Shown: piece after piece, positions 25,450-32,748 of the stretch | Position numbering within the stretch: the stretch's first letter is position 1 | How the letters are laid out: every line of letters starts with the position of its first letter | DNA from: an uncultured Opitutia bacterium | GTDB taxonomy: Bacteria > Verrucomicrobiota > Verrucomicrobiia > Opitutales > Opitutaceae | Direction: 5' to 3' | NCBI GenBank assembly: GCA_903855985.1 | Contig: CAIOAO010000019.1 | Span: forward strand, 1-43,872 | Length of the DNA stretch: 43,872 bases | Translations under genes and position numbers: made by a program | Notes under the pieces: model-generated | What the model saw: the letters and a program-made list of their open reading frames with translations, nothing else | What the model was told of the DNA's origin: nothing | Databases searched by the model: none

Positions 25450-26475
25450 TCAAAAGACCGCCGGCGGCCGGGCGGGCGGCGGGGGCGGCTGCGGCAGGCT
25501 GATGCCCTGGTGGTGCGGGCGGACGTCCTTCGCCTCGCCGGGCTGGAAGTCGTCATCCGTCTTGAAGCTGAAGTCCTGCATGGCCTCGAGTTTGTCGAGG
25601 CGGGCCCGCACGTCGGCGGGCATCGCCTTGCGCTCCTCGGGCGTGTTGACCGGGCCGGAGAACAGCGGCTCACCCTTGGCGTTCTTCGCGATCAGGGTTT
25701 TCTTGCCGTCCTTGATCGTGAGATCGAGCGAGCCGTCGTTGTCGCTGAACACCATGTTGCTGTTGCTGGTGCTGACCGAGATGTTGCGCATGCCGGGGCC
25801 GTGCTCCACCTGCAGGTTGAGCTCCCGCTCGCCGGGACCGTCTGGACCGCCACGGTCAATGAGGGACAGCACGCGGTCGGCGTCCTCGCGGCCCATGCCG
25901 GGCAGCGACTCCGCATCGGCGCCGCCAAAAGCGAACGCCATGTTTCCGCCGTGCAGGCCCGGACCTATCAGGGCCATCTTGGGCACGTCGTGCTTGGCGA
26001 GCTTCACCTTGGCGGTGTCCTGCTTGCCGCCGCGGATGTAGGTCAGCGTGACTTCGTCGCCCTCCTTGTGGTTGCGAATCAGCACCGAGAGCTGGCGCTG
26101 CTCGATGAGCAGCTGGTCGTCGAGTTTGACGAGCACGTCGTGCCGCTTGAGCGCGGCCGCCGCGGGGCTGTCAGACGAGACAACGGTCACGACGAGGCCC
26201 GCGTCCTTGGGCAGGCCGAGTTGGTCGGCCAGCGTTGCGCCGGCCGGGCTGGTCGCGACGCCGAGGAAGGTCACCGTCTCCATCTCGTGCGGTCCGCCGA
26301 TGATGATGCGGTGCTCGCGGTGATGGGGCGGCGGGCCTTTGCCGTCCGGGCCGCCGGGGCCGACGATGATGCGCATTTCCTTTTTCTCCTGCGGCGCGGC
26401 ATCCTGGGCCAGGACGGCCGGCAGGAACGCGGCGAGGCCGGCCATGGGAATGAGATAACGGGTGATGGATTTCAT
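25450..26475 (-). CDS. Secreted PDZ-domain protein
   Basis: The 341-residue protein has a signal peptide (1-23, PAVLAQDAAP) and a PDZ-like domain (about 65-150), with TFLGVATSPAGATLADQLGL and the carboxylate-binding-type segment DAGLVVTVVSSDSPAAAAL. No protease catalytic domain is visible. The C-terminal third is Pro/Asp/Gly-rich and ends in a polyproline tail (QPPPPPARPPAVF). Its gene follows the sigma factor and putative anti-sigma factor 34 bp downstream. PDZ-only proteins in such a setting may bind misfolded-protein signals, but this is inference. Confidence 0.82.
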   Translation of the reverse strand: MKSITRYLIPMAGLAAFLPAVLAQDAAPQEKKEMRIIVGPGGPDGKGPPPHHREHRIIIGGPHEMETVTFLGVATSPAGATLADQLGLPKDAGLVVTVVSSDSPAAAALKRHDVLVKLDDQLLIEQRQLSVLIRNHKEGDEVTLTYIRGGKQDTAKVKLAKHDVPKMALIGPGLHGGNMAFAFGGADAESLPGMGREDADRVLSLIDRGGPDGPGERELNLQVEHGPGMRNISVSTSNSNMVFSDNDGSLDLTIKDGKKTLIAKNAKGEPLFSGPVNTPEERKAMPADVRARLDKLEAMQDFSFKTDDDFQPGEAKDVRPHHQGISLPQPPPPPARPPAVF

Positions 26476-26509
26476 TGGGATCTGGGTTTTGGGTTATGGA
26501 TGATGGGTT

Positions 26510-26980
26510 TTATTGGAAACTGACCGGGACGACCCGCTCCTCAGTGCGGGGCACGCTCCACTTGAGGGAGGCCTGCGTGCGGGGATTCCGCCACGTGATG
26601 GTGTCCACGTAGGAACTGCGGGTGCGGAGTGCGGCGGTGCCGTCGGCGAGGGTCACGAGGCCCTCGTCACTCCGGGCGTAAAGCAGGTTTTCCGCGGACA
26701 CCGGCTTGTACCTGGCGGCCGCAACCACGGGCGCGGTGGCGGCCGGAACAGGGGCCAGAACCGGGGCGGAAGTCGGCGCCGGCGCGACGGGCTGCTCCCG
26801 CAGCAGGACCAATCCGGCCACCATCGCCGCCAGCGGGAGCGCGGTCCACGCCCAGAAATTGCGGCGGTGGCCGGGCGCGGCCGCGAGCTGGCGGGCGATG
26901 TCATCCGTCACCGCGCGCGACGGCGCGAGCGGACGCAGGCGTTTCAATTCGGCTTCAAGTTCCTGGAGTTCGTTATCCAT
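26510..26980 (-). CDS. Putative anti-sigma factor (membrane-anchored, partner of the ECF sigma)
   Basis: The 156-residue protein has a cytoplasmic helical N-terminus (1-40, ELQELEAELKRLRPL), a single membrane helix (about 43-60), a Pro/Ala-rich linker (about 62-85), and a C-terminal beta-rich segment (about 88-156). There is no classic zinc-binding motif of RsrA/ZAS type. The assignment rests on gene order and overlap: its start overlaps the sigma factor stop by 8 bp. That arrangement is typical of sigma/anti-sigma pairs. Confidence 0.6.
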   Translation of the reverse strand: MDNELQELEAELKRLRPLAPSRAVTDDIARQLAAAPGHRRNFWAWTALPLAAMVAGLVLLREQPVAPAPTSAPVLAPVPAATAPVVAAARYKPVSAENLLYARSDEGLVTLADGTAALRTRSSYVDTITWRNPRTQASLKWSVPRTEERVVPVSFQ

Positions 26981-27488
26981 GGCAGTCGGCCGCGGTCAGG
27001 GCGTCGCGCAGCGCCGCCAGCGCGTAGCGGTAACGCGAAGCGGCGGTGTTGGGCGGGATGCCGAGTTGCGCGGCAATTTGTTCAAAGGTGAGTTCGCCCC
27101 AGATCTTGAGCACGAGCACCTCGCGCTGTTCCTCCGGGAGGTCGCGGAGCGCCGTCTCGATGTCAGCGCGACGGTCATCGCCCTCAAGCGGGATGTGGAA
27201 AATGGGCTCGATGCTCTCCAGGCCGCCATCGGCGCGGACTTCGCGGGCGGTGCGGCGCGAGTTGCGGCGGGCAAGATCGGTGGCGGCCCGGCGCACGGAC
27301 GTGTACAAGAGCGCCTGGGGTTCCCCGCCCAGCTGGCGCTGATTCCGCCAGAACCGGACGAAGGCTTCCTGCACCACGTCCTCGGCATCCGCGAGCGACC
27401 GCGTCCACTGCCGCGCGCAAAGCAGCAGTTTCGGGCCGTAGTGCTGAAACCAGTCTCGCCAGGATTCATCGTCAGGAATGTCCGCCAT
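26973..27488 (-). CDS. ECF-type RNA polymerase sigma factor
   Basis: The 171-residue protein has a sigma-2 region with QWTRSLADAEDVVQEAFVRF (core binding and -10 recognition) and a sigma-4 region with LPEEQREVLVLKIWGELTFE and GIPPNTAASRYRYALAALRDAL (the -35-binding HTH). There is no sigma-1.1 or sigma-3 region, as expected for ECF. The start at 27488 gives MADIPDDESWRDWFQ; an upstream in-frame ATG at 27524 is also possible. It heads the sigma/anti-sigma/PDZ operon. Confidence 0.9.
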   Translation of the reverse strand: MADIPDDESWRDWFQHYGPKLLLCARQWTRSLADAEDVVQEAFVRFWRNQRQLGGEPQALLYTSVRRAATDLARRNSRRTAREVRADGGLESIEPIFHIPLEGDDRRADIETALRDLPEEQREVLVLKIWGELTFEQIAAQLGIPPNTAASRYRYALAALRDALTAADCHG

Positions 27489-27581
27489 GCTTTCGTTTGA
27501 GGGGGCTTTCCTGAAAAGCGTCATCGGGGCAGAAGTTTGTCTACCTTCAGCCCAAATAGTTTCCCCAGCCACGCAAATGGG

Positions 27582-27610
27582 CAAAAAAAAGACCCGGATT
27601 ACTCCGGGTC
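27582..27610 (-). terminator. Intrinsic terminator after the 61-residue membrane gene
   Basis: On the minus strand, GACCCGG (27610-27604) pairs with CCGGGTC (27597-27591), followed by TTTTTTTT (27590-27583). The 7-bp stem with a 6-nt loop and a long T run is a classic terminator. It follows the small membrane gene and separates it from the ECF sigma factor gene. Confidence 0.88.
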
Positions 27611-27634
27611 TCGCACAACAAAACTTGGCCGGGC

Positions 27635-27820
27635 TTACCGCCCAGTCAGCTTCTTCCAGGTGATGCGGTATTCAGCCGCAGCCATGGCAAGGAGCATCAG
27701 GACGACGCCAAAGCCGACCAGGGAGTCCACGTTGATCGCGGGGTGAGCACGGGAAAGCAGATAAACAGCGGCGCCAGTGAGGCTTAGGGTGACCGCCAAG
27801 GCGGTGTATTCGTTCTTCAT
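27635..27820 (-). CDS. Small two-helix membrane protein, unrecognised
   Basis: I do not recognise this 61-residue protein. Two hydrophobic helices (about 6-24 and 32-50) are separated by a short polar loop, and the C-terminus is basic (YRITWKKLTGR). It is divergent from the OxyR-like regulator, sharing the 113-bp intergenic region that carries an OxyR-type operator. It ends in a strong terminator, so it is a single-gene transcript. A role in the same response as the regulator is plausible but unproven. Confidence 0.7.
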   Translation of the reverse strand: MKNEYTALAVTLSLTGAAVYLLSRAHPAINVDSLVGFGVVLMLLAMAAAEYRITWKKLTGR

Positions 27821-27878: not shown

Positions 27879-27935
27879 TCAACTCTTCAATAGTTGAAAT
27901 AATCGCTAACTATCGTATCTATAGATTTAGGCTAT
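27879..27935 (+). promoter_or_regulatory. OxyR-type operator (four tetranucleotides) and upstream inverted repeat
   Basis: At 27899-27935 the sequence reads ATAA-N7-CTAT-N7-ATAG-N7-CTAT, matching 15 of 16 tetranucleotide positions of the known OxyR consensus ATAG-N7-CTAT-N7-ATAG-N7-CTAT; only the fourth base differs (A instead of G). The last CTAT spans the ATG of the LysR gene (27934), so binding would overlap the start and suggests autorepression. Upstream, TCAACT (27879-27884) and AGTTGA (27892-27897) form a perfect inverted repeat. The matching bases are seen directly; binding is inferred. Confidence 0.65.
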
Positions 27936-28836
27936 GGAACTACACCAATTGCGTTACATGGTAGCGGTGGCGGAAACGGGTAACTTCACCCGGGCTTCCG
28001 AACGGTCGCACATAACGCAACCCTCTCTCAGCCAGCAGATTTTGAATCTGGAGAAAGAGGTCGGCCACAAGCTGTTCCACCGGCTGGGTCGCAAGGCGGT
28101 CCTGACCGAGGCAGGTGCGACGTTCCTCGAGCGCGCCCGGCGGATTCTCTTCGAGGTCGAAAACGCTGCCAAGGAGCTGAAGGACAGCCCGTCGCTTGAC
28201 CGCGTGATCACCGTCGGGGCCGTGCCCACGGTGGCCCCTTATCTCCTGGCCCCGCTGATCGAGCGCTGCCGGGTGACGCATCCCAATCTCACGGTGCACA
28301 TGCGCGAGGATTTCCGCAGCGACCTCACCCGCGCCGTCCTGGAGGGTGATCTCGACCTCGCCGTCGTCACTCTGCCCGTCAAGGACCACCGGCTGTCCAT
28401 CGAGCCGTTGCTCACCGAACCCTTGTTGCTAGTCGTCAGCCGCAGCCACCCGCTCGCCGGCCGTTCCCAGGTCACCGCCAACGACCTCGCGGAGGAGACC
28501 TTTGTGACCATGGGTGACTCCAGCACGTTGGCCGCCCAGATCCGGAGCTTCTGCGGCGACCATAATTTTGTCCCCAGGATCGGCTACCGCTGCGCCCAGG
28601 TGGCGACGCTGAAGCTCTTCGTCGCCATGGGCGCGGGCATTTCCATCCTGCCCCAGGTGGCGCAACTGCCCGAGGACCGGGGCACCCTCACCTATCTCCG
28701 CCTCACCGGCAGCGCCCCCACCCGTGAAATCGCCGTCATCCGCCACCTCCAGCGTTACCAGAGCCGGGGCGCCGAGCAGTTCCTCGCCCTGCTCCGCGAG
28801 CAGGGCCGCGTGAGCGCGAGCCCCTTCGCATCCTGA
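27934..28836 (+). CDS. OxyR-like LysR-family transcriptional regulator lacking the peroxidatic cysteine
   Basis: The 300-residue protein has a LysR winged HTH (1-60, MELHQLRYMVAVAETGNF) and a C-terminal substrate-binding domain. Residues 91-104 align with E. coli OxyR (VGAVPTVAPYLL versus IGLIPTVGPYLL). The segment ending SFC places C207 at the OxyR C208 (resolving) position, but the residue nine earlier is T198 where OxyR has the peroxidatic C199. Other cysteines are C112 and C220. It sits in an OxyR-type operator and precedes an MFS transporter by 41 bp. It may sense something other than peroxide. Confidence 0.9.
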   Translation: MELHQLRYMVAVAETGNFTRASERSHITQPSLSQQILNLEKEVGHKLFHRLGRKAVLTEAGATFLERARRILFEVENAAKELKDSPSLDRVITVGAVPTVAPYLLAPLIERCRVTHPNLTVHMREDFRSDLTRAVLEGDLDLAVVTLPVKDHRLSIEPLLTEPLLLVVSRSHPLAGRSQVTANDLAEETFVTMGDSSTLAAQIRSFCGDHNFVPRIGYRCAQVATLKLFVAMGAGISILPQVAQLPEDRGTLTYLRLTGSAPTREIAVIRHLQRYQSRGAEQFLALLREQGRVSASPFAS

Positions 28837-28877: not shown

Positions 28878-30158
28878 ATGCCTCCTTCCGGTCATCACCA
28901 TGCCCTTCCTCCCGGCACCGAGCGCGCCACGCTGCTCATGCTCGGGGCGGTGCAGTTCACGCACATCCTGGATTTCATGATCATGATGCCGCTGGGCGCG
29001 CAGCTGATGCGGGTGTTCAACATCACGCCGTCGCAGTTCACCCAGCTGGTCGCCTGCTATGGCCTGGCGGCGGCGGTGAGCGGGTTTGTGGGCGGGTTTT
29101 TCATGGACCGCTTTGACCGCAAGCGCGCACTGCTCGTGCTCTACGCGGGCTTCGGCATCTCCACCTTCGCCTGCGGTCTCGCCCCCACCCACCACTGGCT
29201 GATGGTGGCGCGGCTGGCGGCAGGGGCCTTTGGCGGACTCGCCGGCTCCATGGTCACGGCGATGATCGGCGACATCATTCCGCCGGAACGGCGCGGCCGG
29301 GCGATGGCCGTGGTCATGGGTGCATTCCCCGTGGCCTCCGTGCTCGGGGTGCCCGTCGGGCTGGTGCTCGCCGGCAAATACGGCTGGCACGCCCCATTCT
29401 TCATGCTCGGCGCCTGCGCCGGGGCGAACCTCCTGTTCGGCTCGCTCGTGCTCCCGCATCTCCGCACCGCCGTCGCGGACCACAATCCCCGCCGCCAGAT
29501 GCGCGAGATCCTTTCCCACCGGCTGCACCTGCGGGCGTTTGCCCTCGGCGGCGTCCTCGTGATGGGCGGCGGCGTGCTCATCCCGTTCATCGCGCCTTCC
29601 TTTGTCGCCAATGTCGGGCTCAATGAAACCTTCCAGCTCCCGCTGGTGTACGTCGCCGGTGGCCTGGCCACGATGATCAGCATGCCGCTGGTCGGCTGGC
29701 TGAGCGACCGCGTGGACCGGCTGTGGCTGTTCACCTGGCTGTCCGCCGCGGCCATCGTGGTGGTGCTTGTGATTGTGCGGCTCGGCCCCTCCTCCTTCGG
29801 CTTCGCCGCGCTCATGATGGCATTGTTCATGGTCCCGATGTCGGGCCGCTTCGCCCCGGCGATGACCATGGTCACCAACGCCGTGGAGTCCCGCTACCGG
29901 GGCGGCTTCATGAGCGTCAATTCCGCCCTGCAGCAGGCCACAAGCGGACTCGCCAACGTGCTGGCCGGCTTTTTTGTCACGCGCGATCCCGCCGGCCACC
30001 TGCTCGGCTACCCCGTGCTCGGCTATGTGTCCGTGGCCTTCTTCGTGCTCGCCGTGCTCTGCGCCATTGGCCTCCGCAACGCCGCGCCGCATGTCGCCAC
30101 CCCGGCGAAAAAGGACGTGCCCCCGCCGCCGCACGTCGAGGTCGAGGCCTTCACCTGA
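28878..30158 (+). CDS. Major facilitator superfamily transporter
   Basis: The 426-residue protein has twelve predicted membrane helices. The MFS loop 2-3 motif reads GGFFMDRFDRKRALLVLYAG, and the conserved A-T-G-rich helix segments GAFGGLAGSMVTAMIG and VMGAFPVASVLGVPVGLVLA fit the DHA1/drug-H+ antiporter type. The short N-terminus begins MPPSGHHHALPPGTERATL. It follows the OxyR-like regulator by 41 bp and precedes the U32 gene by 1 bp, so the three are probably co-transcribed. The substrate is unknown; drug or metabolite export is a family-level guess. Confidence 0.9.
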   Translation: MPPSGHHHALPPGTERATLLMLGAVQFTHILDFMIMMPLGAQLMRVFNITPSQFTQLVACYGLAAAVSGFVGGFFMDRFDRKRALLVLYAGFGISTFACGLAPTHHWLMVARLAAGAFGGLAGSMVTAMIGDIIPPERRGRAMAVVMGAFPVASVLGVPVGLVLAGKYGWHAPFFMLGACAGANLLFGSLVLPHLRTAVADHNPRRQMREILSHRLHLRAFALGGVLVMGGGVLIPFIAPSFVANVGLNETFQLPLVYVAGGLATMISMPLVGWLSDRVDRLWLFTWLSAAAIVVVLVIVRLGPSSFGFAALMMALFMVPMSGRFAPAMTMVTNAVESRYRGGFMSVNSALQQATSGLANVLAGFFVTRDPAGHLLGYPVLGYVSVAFFVLAVLCAIGLRNAAPHVATPAKKDVPPPPHVEVEAFT

Positions 30159-30159
30159 C

Positions 30160-32748
30160 ATGAAACCGCCCGCCGGAGACACGCTCGCCGCCCCCGGCCC
30201 CGCGCCGGCGGAGAACCGCGCCCGGCGGCCGGAGTTGCTCGCGCCCGCGGGGGACTGGGAATGCGCGCGGGCCGCCGTCGAGAACGGCGCCGATGCGATC
30301 TACTTCGGCCTCGAGCGCTTCAACGCCCGCATGCGCGCGAAAAACTTCACCACCGCCGACCTGCCCGCGCTGATGGAATTCCTCCACCGCCGGGGCGTGA
30401 AGGGTTACGTGACGTTCAACACCCTCATCTTCCCGTCCGAGCTCGCCGATGCCGCCGACTGCCTGCGCGCGATCATCGCGGCCGGCGTGGACGCCGCGAT
30501 CGTCCAGGATATCGGCATCTGCCGGCTCATCCGTTCGATCTCACCGGATTTTCCCATCCACTGCTCCACGCAGATGACCATCACAAGCGCCGCCGGCGTG
30601 GCATTCGCCCGCGACCTCGGCGCCCAGCTCGTGGTGCTGGCCCGGGAAAACTCCCTCGCGGATATTGCAAAGATCAATGCCGCCCAGGCCGCCGCCGAGG
30701 TGCAGCTGCCGCTCGAGGTCTTCGTCCATGGCGCACTCTGCGTCGCCTATTCCGGCCAGTGTCTCACCAGCGAATCACTCGGCGGCCGTTCCGCCAACCG
30801 CGGCGAGTGCGCCCAGGCCTGCCGGCTGCCCTACGACCTCATCTCCGACGGCAAACAGGTCCCACTGGGCGACCGCCGTTATCTGCTCAGTCCCCAGGAC
30901 CTCTCGGGCCTCGATGTGTTGCCCGACCTCGTGCGCGCCGGCGTGGCCTCCCTCAAGATCGAAGGCCGCCTGAAGTCCCCCGAGTACGTCGCCAGCATCA
31001 CGCGCGTCTACCGCTCGGCCCTCGACAAGGTGATGGCGGAGATGGCGGGCGCCGCATTCCTCCCCGCCTTTGATCCCAAGTCCGCCCGCTACGAGTTGGA
31101 GATGAGTTTCTCCCGCGGGCTCTACACCGGCTGGTTCCGCGGGAACAACAACCAGGAACTCGCCCACGCCCGCTTCGGCACCAAGCGCGGGGTGTTCCTC
31201 GGCGAGGTGCTGCGCGTGGCCCACGAAAGCGTCACGCTGAAGCTCGCCGCGCCGCTCAAGCCGGGCGATGGCATCGTGTTCGACGCCGGCAAGCCCGCCG
31301 AGCGCGAGGAGGGCGGACGCGTTTACCAGGTGATGCCCGGACGCGACTCCGAGGTGACACTGCGCTTTGGCGATGGGGACATCGACTGGCGCCGCGTGGC
31401 GGCCGGCCAGCTCGTCTGGAAAACCAACGACCCCGCGCTGGACCGCGACGTGCGCACCTCGTTCGAGGGCGAACAGATTCATTTCGCCCGGCCGATCACG
31501 CTCGAGGTCCACGGCCGCGCCGGCACCCCGCTCACCCTCATCGCCAACGATCACCGCGGGCATGTCGTGAAAACCGAGTCCACGATCGCGCTCGCGCCCG
31601 CGACGAAGCAGCCGCTCTCACCCGAGCGACTGCGCGAGCAACTTGGCCGCCTCGGCGGCACGCCCTTCCAGCTCGGGGAGCTGCACTCCCACCTTGAGGG
31701 CGAAGTGATCCTGCCCGTGAGCGAGCTCAACCGCCTCCGCCGCGAATCCGCCGCTGAGCTGGAAAAACTCCGCGCCCAGCCCCTGCGATGGCAAATCACG
31801 GAGCCCAAGCTTCCCGCCTTCGCCACCACCGCCGCACCCGCCAGCACTCCGGAGCTGATCGCCGTGATCCGCCTCCTCCCGCAGCTCGACGCCGCCTGGG
31901 CCGCCGGCGCCCGCACCATCTACTGCGAGTTCGAGAACCCGAAGTTTTACCGCGACGCCGTCACCCGCTTCCGTGAACTCCAACACTCCGAAACCGATAA
32001 TGGTAAATCGAAGACAGTAAATGGCTCCTCGATTTGGGTGGCGGCGCCCAGAGTCTTCAAACCGGGTGAGGAGTGGATCCTGAAACAGGTGCGCTCGTGC
32101 GACGCCGACGGCTATCTCGTCCGCAACTACGACCACCTCGCCTTCTTCGCCGGGGATCGGCGGCGCGGGGATTTTTCCCTCAACGTCGCCAACCCGCTGA
32201 CGGCGGATTATTTCCTGCATCACCATGGCCTGGAGCGCGTGACGGCGAGCTACGACCTGAACATCGCCCAGCTCGAGTCGCTCCTGCAGACCGCACCGCC
32301 GGCCTGGTTCGACCTCACCGTGCACCAGCACATGCCGATGTTTCACATGGAGCACTGCGTGTTCTGCGCGTTTCTCTCGACCGGCAAGGACTACCGCGAC
32401 TGCGGCCGGCCGTGCGACAGCCATGTGGTCACCCTGCGCGACCGCGTCGGCGCCGAGCTGCCGCTCCGGGCCGACGCCGGCTGCCGCAACACCGTCTTCA
32501 ACAACCGCGCCCAGACCGGCGCCGAGTACATCGCCCGCCTGCTGGAGCTCGGTGCCCGCAGCTTCCGCGTGGAATTCGTCAACGAGGAGCCGGCGGAAGT
32601 CACCCGGACGCTCGAGAAATACCAGCTGCTCCTCCGCGGCGAAATCTCCGGTGCCGACCTCTGGCGCGAATTGAAACTGCTCCACCAGCTCGGCGTGACC
32701 CGCGGCCAGATGGAAACCGCCCCGCAGGTCATCCACCGGAAGCAGTAG
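30160..32748 (+). CDS. U32-family (RlhA/PrtC-like) protein, long form with extra C-terminal domain
   Basis: The 862-residue protein begins after a short Ala/Pro-rich leader with ELLAPAGDWECARAAVENGA and has the U32 signature with clustered cysteines: FVHGALCVAYSGQCLTSESL followed by RGECAQACRLPYDL. Later, HMEHCVFCAFLSTGKDYRDC and CRNTVFNNRAQTGAEY form a second cysteine-containing region, as in long DUF3656-type members. RlhA-type proteins modify 23S rRNA by cytidine hydroxylation; others act in tRNA hydroxylation. The ATG at 30160 lies 1 bp after the MFS stop. An in-frame AT-rich insertion (about 31990-32036) interrupts the protein. Confidence 0.88.
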   Translation: MKPPAGDTLAAPGPAPAENRARRPELLAPAGDWECARAAVENGADAIYFGLERFNARMRAKNFTTADLPALMEFLHRRGVKGYVTFNTLIFPSELADAADCLRAIIAAGVDAAIVQDIGICRLIRSISPDFPIHCSTQMTITSAAGVAFARDLGAQLVVLARENSLADIAKINAAQAAAEVQLPLEVFVHGALCVAYSGQCLTSESLGGRSANRGECAQACRLPYDLISDGKQVPLGDRRYLLSPQDLSGLDVLPDLVRAGVASLKIEGRLKSPEYVASITRVYRSALDKVMAEMAGAAFLPAFDPKSARYELEMSFSRGLYTGWFRGNNNQELAHARFGTKRGVFLGEVLRVAHESVTLKLAAPLKPGDGIVFDAGKPAEREEGGRVYQVMPGRDSEVTLRFGDGDIDWRRVAAGQLVWKTNDPALDRDVRTSFEGEQIHFARPITLEVHGRAGTPLTLIANDHRGHVVKTESTIALAPATKQPLSPERLREQLGRLGGTPFQLGELHSHLEGEVILPVSELNRLRRESAAELEKLRAQPLRWQITEPKLPAFATTAAPASTPELIAVIRLLPQLDAAWAAGARTIYCEFENPKFYRDAVTRFRELQHSETDNGKSKTVNGSSIWVAAPRVFKPGEEWILKQVRSCDADGYLVRNYDHLAFFAGDRRRGDFSLNVANPLTADYFLHHHGLERVTASYDLNIAQLESLLQTAPPAWFDLTVHQHMPMFHMEHCVFCAFLSTGKDYRDCGRPCDSHVVTLRDRVGAELPLRADAGCRNTVFNNRAQTGAEYIARLLELGARSFRVEFVNEEPAEVTRTLEKYQLLLRGEISGADLWRELKLLHQLGVTRGQMETAPQVIHRKQ
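31990..32036 (+). repeat. AT-rich palindromic in-frame insertion inside the U32 gene
   Basis: Within otherwise very GC-rich coding sequence, this segment is clearly AT-rich. AAATCGA (32005-32011) and TCGATTT (32029-32035) form a 7-bp inverted repeat with a 17-nt loop. It encodes a polar stretch (SETDNGKSKTVNGSS) without disturbing the frame. It resembles a small palindromic insertion element. Confidence 0.5.

Follow-up and report, generated by a model that had tools for sequence, protein, structure and literature searches.

A predicted OxyR-lineage LysR-type regulator with threonine at the peroxidatic position and a divergent small membrane-protein gene in Opitutaceae

Organization of the locus and alignment of the regulator

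We analyzed a stretch of DNA of 43,872 nucleotides (here called the window) from an uncultured Opitutaceae bacterium, whose assembly comprises 2.9 Mb (completeness, 100; contamination, 0.69). A gene for a LysR-type regulator lies divergently from an open reading frame (ORF) for a predicted small membrane protein, with 113 bp between the start of the small ORF and the regulator start codon, ATG (Table 1). The regulator carries HTH_1 and LysR_substrate domains (174 bits, Pfam), the LysR-type architecture expected of OxyR, and is followed by an MFS transporter gene, which is probably cotranscribed with it.

Table 1. Features of the regulator locus, with positions in the window
Feature	Position	Strand	Observation
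LysR-type regulator, 300 aa, putative OxyR lineage, T at peroxidatic position	27934..28836	+	ORF, domains, trees
Codon C112	28267..28269	+	C in 83/99 family rows
Codon R128 (OxyR T129)	28315..28317	+	R 89, K 7 of 99 family rows
Codon S197 (OxyR H198)	28522..28524	+	S in 97/99 family rows
Codon T198 (OxyR C199)	28525..28527	+	T/S/A in 78/78 identity-chosen orthologues covering the position
Codon C207 (OxyR C208)	28552..28554	+	C 55/99, F 39/99 family rows
Codon C220 (E. coli A221)	28591..28593	+	C in 96/99 family rows
Predicted OxyR-type operator, ATAA-N7-CTAT-N7-ATAG-N7-CTAT	27899..27935	.	15/16 fixed bases; ends inside regulator ATG
Conserved extension ATAGTTGAAAT at -44	27890..27900	+	Exact in 57/97 upstream regions, all at -44
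Small ORF, 61 aa, predicted two-helix hairpin membrane protein	27635..27820	-	No Pfam family over cut-off, no NCBIfam match
Intrinsic-terminator-like hairpin and T run after small ORF	27583..27611	-	z -3.45
ECF sigma factor	26973..27584	-	Beyond terminator; linked in 42/91 family loci, 0/41 C199+ loci
MFS transporter, nearest NCBIfam model myxochelin exporter MxcK	28878..30158	+	302 of 525 bits (below cut-off); 41 bp downstream of regulator

Alignment with OxyR of E. coli K-12 (locus L160) placed PTVAPYLL (residues 98 to 105) of the window regulator on PTVGPYLL and GDSSTLAAQIRSFC on EDGHCLRDQAMGFC, with T198 opposite C199 and C207 opposite C208. The original prediction had recognized the first match but numbered it 97 to 104, and its assignment of T198 to the peroxidatic and C207 to the resolving position was confirmed with E. 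coli OxyR. The top-scoring solved OxyR in a phmmer search was the Corynebacterium glutamicum C206S protein, whose Ser206 sits on T198. Thus, the presence of threonine at the peroxidatic position of this OxyR-like regulator is confirmed as an observation on the sequence. C220 falls on A221 of the E. coli protein, and the outcome named beforehand as speaking against the assignment, C220 at the peroxidatic position, was seen in none of the alignments made; since no alignment or model made here puts C220 on C199, its candidacy as a displaced peroxidatic residue was rejected. In an AlphaFold model built with 58 sequences (mean pLDDT, 90.3), T198 is the first residue of a helix (residues 198 to 209) and C220 ends a strand (residues 215 to 220). 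The predicted place of T198 at the beginning of a helix resembles that of C199 in Neisseria meningitidis OxyR, described as opening helix alpha-3 (C199 to S207) (PMC2881104).

For residue counts, proteins shorter than 250 aa and identical proteins were removed, and three sets were formed among the matches listed: 79 distinct rows with at least 57% identity, the window regulator included (identity-chosen set); 99 rows without Cys at position 198, with distant LysR-type regulators (LTTRs) set aside (the family); and 41 OxyR-like rows with Cys in that column (the C199+ group). An MFS homologue follows the regulator gene at 63 of 95 family loci and at none of 41 C199+ loci, and a gene for peptidase U32/DUF3656 (window positions 29974 to 32748, plus strand) comes after the MFS gene and is kept at many family loci. 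On the other side (25450 to 27584, minus strand), the ECF sigma factor gene, a gene for a 156-aa protein, and a PDZ protein gene form a block that is conserved beside many family loci; the 156-aa protein, which had no Pfam or NCBIfam match, is an anti-sigma candidate by position only. We rejected the ECF sigma factor as a direct divergent target because the small ORF and the terminator-like hairpin intervene and the linkage is only partial (Table 1).

Changes in the peroxide pocket and cysteines of the family

OxyR is a textbook redox switch. As the original prediction had proposed, we checked whether T198 is kept in orthologues. The independent count comes from the identity-chosen set, with T in 33 rows, S in 36, A in 9, and one gap, since the residue is fixed by construction in the 99-row and 41-row groups, which were defined by Cys at this position (in the family, S 48, T 41, and A 10). 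The H2O2 site of OxyR has been described as including C199, T129, A147, P99, and T100 (PMC7038661) and T100, G197, and H198 (PMC13253662). T100 is kept in the window regulator as T99 (T in 90 and S in 9 of the 99 family rows), while C199, H198, and T129 are replaced by T198, S197, and R128, respectively. The change at T129 had been predicted correctly, although the corresponding residue is R128 and not, as first named, R127. In the 41 C199+ rows, position 128 is T in 40 and S in 1, and position 197 is H in 37 and N in 4. Taken together, the counts at positions 128, 197, and 198 imply that several pocket residues have changed together. Two further residues are conserved in the family, K227 (98/99) and R270 (92/99). 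We do not class the window regulator as OxyR because C199, H198, and T129 are all replaced in it.

The cysteines of the window regulator are C112, C207, and C220. The original prediction had suggested that C112 and C220 might make up a different switch; these positions are C in 83 and 96 of the 99 family rows, respectively. Although C207 occupies the resolving position, this residue is F, L, or T in 44 of the 99 family rows, and at least four changes at this position are needed on a 68-row tree (see below), which makes it doubtful that C207 is a kept resolving cysteine. C220 was present in 78/78 identity-chosen rows covering the position. As a separate observation, two OxyR-like proteins (L146 and L148) have C199 and a Tyr at the resolving position (HCAGRQISEFY and HCAGRQISEIY) and thus appear to be natural C199-only variants.

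The main alternative to a changed signal is that the protein still responds through the thiol of C220. By this explanation, the regulator would be a one-cysteine-type sensor of oxidants, electrophiles, or low-molecular-weight thiols that acts through C220 (or C207 in the genus of the window organism) by sulfenylation or S-thiolation, with no C199-C208 disulfide. Such sensors exist, in that DrOxyR (DR0615) of Deinococcus radiodurans has one cysteine, C210, by which it is reported to sense peroxide, and activates katE (PMC2225504). We translated its mutagenic C210A primer by hand (FDQVMHW-x-ADAGFT) and aligned it by eye with DQAMGFCFEAG of E. coli OxyR; by this primer alignment, C210 would correspond to C208 and to C207 of the window regulator, so that both proteins would lack the Cys of position C199 but carry that of position C208. 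Hence, as far as DrOxyR is described there, peroxide sensing can outlast C199, and the redox-insensitive protein considered in the original prediction is only one possibility. However, the window regulator differs from DrOxyR in having three cysteines, in belonging to a family that does not keep C207, and in having no peroxide gene seen beside it. The strength of the thiol explanation lies in the near invariance of C220 in the family (Table 1), although this residue may be a mere small packing residue, because it is also C in 6 of the 41 C199+ proteins and S, T, A, or G in the other 35. The replacement of C207 in nearly half of the family and the gene content of the window genome, given below, also argue against it, and we regard this explanation as possible but unlikely.

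Other LTTRs offer partial likenesses. Mycobacterial OxyS, which is linked to oxidative stress, does not use the C199-C208 pair but is described as acting via Cys25 in the DNA-binding domain and repressing katG (PMC3260234); a Cys occurs at column 25 in 24 of the 99 family rows, and the window regulator has none there. LsrB of Rhizobiales, for which the pairs C144-C273 and C236-C244 have been proposed (PMC11975290), likewise has cysteines other than the OxyR pair, a likeness to the window regulator drawn by position numbers only.

We also considered a locked OxyR, in which T, S, or A at position 199 would fix the reduced state and leave a constitutive autorepressor without a signal. The C199S variant has been described as locked reduced, and the C199T, C199S, and C199A variants of DepR are reported to have lost gel-shift bands, with C199S still footprinting a 21-nt region (PMC5908139). 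These same three residues are the natural ones in the family. On the other hand, R128, S197, K227, and R270 are newly conserved, which suggests that a new contact was selected for and not that function was lost, and a locked OxyR therefore seems quite improbable to us.

The operator and the divergent small-protein gene

LTTR sites are known to follow the T-N11-A rule. The more specific OxyR consensus is given as ATAGntnnnanCTAT-7 nt-ATAGntnnnanCTAT (PMC10580950), and the window regulator gene has at its own promoter a site that agrees with ATAG-N7-CTAT-N7-ATAG-N7-CTAT at 15 of the 16 fixed bases. Because the last CTAT runs into the regulator ATG, the scan had to take in the start codon; a scan ending before the ATG gave mostly 10 or 11 of 16. 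Across the family, the best site reached at least 13/16 in 95 of 97 upstream regions, and 95 lay in the same register over the regulator start codon. In the control, 6,750 single-base shuffles reached 13 in 0.06% of cases and 14 in none, and the E. coli oxyR-oxyS region itself scored 14/16. The best operator of 16 of 39 C199+ genes lies in the same register as in the family. A LTTR outside the OxyR clade (L199/L247 in genome G016, C1:6390303-6390339) has a 14/16 OxyR-type site just upstream, so that such a site is by itself no proof of OxyR descent.

The window operator is the sole site in its genome at two mismatches or fewer; at up to three, two sites were found, namely, the regulator operator (one mismatch) and another with three. 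We searched 16 genomes at up to two mismatches, 13 of which hold a family gene. Ten of these 13 (G000, G003, G004, G009, G014, G017, G024, G030, G033, and G093) have a single site, at the family regulator, and G019 (two sites) and G029 (six sites) each have one there; in G079, which also holds a family gene, no site was found at this threshold. Among the others, G015 has one site, at a C199-bearing gene, G016 has two, and G027, for which only a C199+ gene was fetched, has none. A reversed control pattern matched once in G030 and twice each in G019 and G029. Apart from the site at the family LTTR, G029 has three sites that precede small ORFs, a fourth that overlaps the start or 5' part of a long frame, and a fifth near which no small hydrophobic ORF was found.

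The divergent small ORF is a candidate target of the regulator. With the most hydrophobic ATG-initiated ORF of 45 to 100 aa taken as the test, it was present at 95 of 96 family loci and absent from all 39 C199+ loci; at places picked at random in the same loci, the test was positive for 72 of 960. Its pN/pS is 0.47 (16 close sequences). With the window small ORF as the query, matches were found in 20 of 54 genomes, the window genome included; 19 of the 21 matches listed adjoin a regulator gene by coordinates, and the remaining two are a match at the edge of a contig in G007 and a second, weak one in G001. The three extra operators before small ORFs in G029 (L250:2252-2288, L250:7935-7971, and L249:2652-2688) each lie 55 to 59 nt before a hydrophobic ORF of 56 to 58 aa that looks similar to the small partner, which provides an independent pointer to the small protein as the target. 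Helices are predicted at residues 2 to 25 and 31 to 51. The best of five models has a mean pLDDT of 81 and the others 65 to 73 (overall span, 65 to 81), with a pTM of 0.45; the predicted structure is thus weaker than the best score suggests. Scans of both Pfam and NCBIfam gave no Pfam family at the cut-off and no NCBIfam match, and, judged by these scans, the conserved small membrane protein predicted here is undescribed.

The genes around the tested C199+ regulators are mostly of another kind. Pfam analysis was applied to 11 of the 41 C199+ loci, picked after catalase-like ORF lengths had been seen, and found a catalase or peroxidase near the regulator in 10 (the exception being L196). Heme catalase occurs in 4 of 38 genomes, the window genome included in the search, each time adjoining a C199-bearing gene, judged by coordinates. 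The window genome gave no match to PF00199 (heme catalase) or the PF00141 peroxidase, the two families to which the search was directed. It contains four LysR_substrate matches, three of them over the cut-off, and the two of these other than the window regulator (L002 and L003) have P and S, respectively, in column 198; hence, no LTTR over that cut-off bears C199. The word paralogue in the original prediction therefore needs care for the window genome, although both family and C199+ genes do occur together in seven of the other genomes from which loci were taken. Our search of the open-access literature found nothing on OxyR or LysR regulators together with catalase in Verrucomicrobia.

Descent of the family and its likely role

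The family lacking C199 is widespread in Opitutaceae, as judged from sequence labels. Relatives in a species-genome collection were found at 71 loci, 68 of which (L035 to L102) are labelled Opitutae, Opitutaceae, Opitutus, or Verrucomicrobia; of the remaining three, two (L103 and L104) are distant LTTRs from other bacteria, and one (L105) is a fragment from Opitutus. In a 119-row tree built without columns 112, 198, 207, and 220, a clade with a support of 94 unites the 53 family rows and all 39 C199-bearing rows and leaves CynR, CysB, and other LTTRs outside. In both trees the family is monophyletic; in the 68-row tree, it (support, 99/91) lies within the C199 proteins, grouping with eight C199+ rows (98/92), and a branch (95/92) separates the family and the C199+ rows from seven other LTTRs. 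Of 200 bootstrap trees, 0% recovered the C199-bearing rows as monophyletic; forcing them into one clade cost 22.9 log units, with a p-AU of 0.066 (0.065 after long branches were removed). One change suffices at position 198 on this tree. Since the trees place the family inside the C199-bearing OxyR-like proteins, the cysteine was probably lost within the OxyR lineage, although C199+ monophyly, the alternative, was not rejected by the AU test (p-AU, 0.066). Separately, another family of the class has an OxyR-like protein (L174/L197:3001-3903) with C at positions 198, 207, and 220, encoded divergently from a manganese catalase, which is a possible intermediate.

Profile and fold comparisons give a different ranking. 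The NCBIfam profiles of CynR (190 of 277 bits) and CidR (183 of 415) outscore that of OxyR (158 of 329) on the window regulator, all below their cut-offs, and the OxyR equivalog cut-off was reached in none of the 57 genomes searched, the window genome included. In the fold comparison, the best Z of 25.2 was shared by CynR (204 residues) and OxyR (294 residues), so that this comparison fails to separate the two. Consequently, it is the trees and the DNA site that carry the case for OxyR descent. CynR, the one member of the CynR, CidR, and AlsR types included in the trees, falls outside the clade of the family and the C199+ group, and its upstream region (L162) scores only 9/16 for the operator. 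CynR-, CidR-, and AlsR-type LTTRs have a ligand-gated pocket. Another explanation, a common CynR/CidR-like LTTR in which C199 was never present and which resembles OxyR only as LTTRs generally do, would accord with the profile ranking, the tied Z, and the p-AU value, but the two well-supported branches joining the family to C199+ rows and the operator register shared with C199+ genes argue against it, and we consider it very unlikely.

OxyR descent is thus most probable for the window regulator, which still carries an OxyR-type address. It shares with OxyR of E. coli, C. glutamicum, Pseudomonas aeruginosa, and N. meningitidis the domain order, the PTV-PYLL motif, the operator pattern at its own promoter, and probably the tree position, whereas it differs from them in the replaced C199, H198, and T129, in having no catalase neighbor seen, and in the single strong operator in the genome. 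The earlier interpretation is therefore upheld in part: the suggestion that the protein may sense something else fits best, as lineage, operator, and replaced pocket agree. We consider it reasonably probable that this is an OxyR-lineage LysR-type regulator of Opitutaceae that has kept the OxyR operator, has lost the peroxide-reacting center, responds to another signal, and controls the small-protein gene. A fuller scenario, in which OxyR was made into a sensor of something else, has in our view an even chance of being correct; here, the operator over the start codon and the divergent layout would have been kept, C199, H198, and T129 would have given way to a site with an Arg, and an undescribed hairpin membrane protein, with extra copies behind the operator in one genome, would have taken the place of catalase as the target.

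By the first of these two readings, the regulator would bind its single strong operator and, as it covers its own start region, would probably repress itself and, in the window, the MFS gene behind it. It would also switch the divergent small-protein gene, which stands where a catalase or peroxidase gene is found in most of the tested C199-bearing relatives. What reaches the former peroxide pocket would be a signal other than direct oxidation of C199; the simplest candidate is a small ligand, probably anionic, bound by R128, T99, and T198. Given the changed pocket and the conserved Arg in place of T129, we tentatively put forward such an anionic ligand as the likeliest signal; the alanine at position 198 in 10 of the 99 family rows weakens the idea that a hydroxyl there contacts the ligand.

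If this reading is true, the family would be a lineage in which the residues of laboratory mutants (S, T, and A) occur naturally at C199, with the operator kept and the target changed, and would show how a peroxide sensor was rebuilt into another sensor. OxyR-like matches without C199 should accordingly not be taken as peroxide sensors. Besides, the locus exposes a small conserved membrane protein that lies outside all Pfam and NCBIfam models scanned, and a regulon of nearly one site would make both the signal and the output findable.
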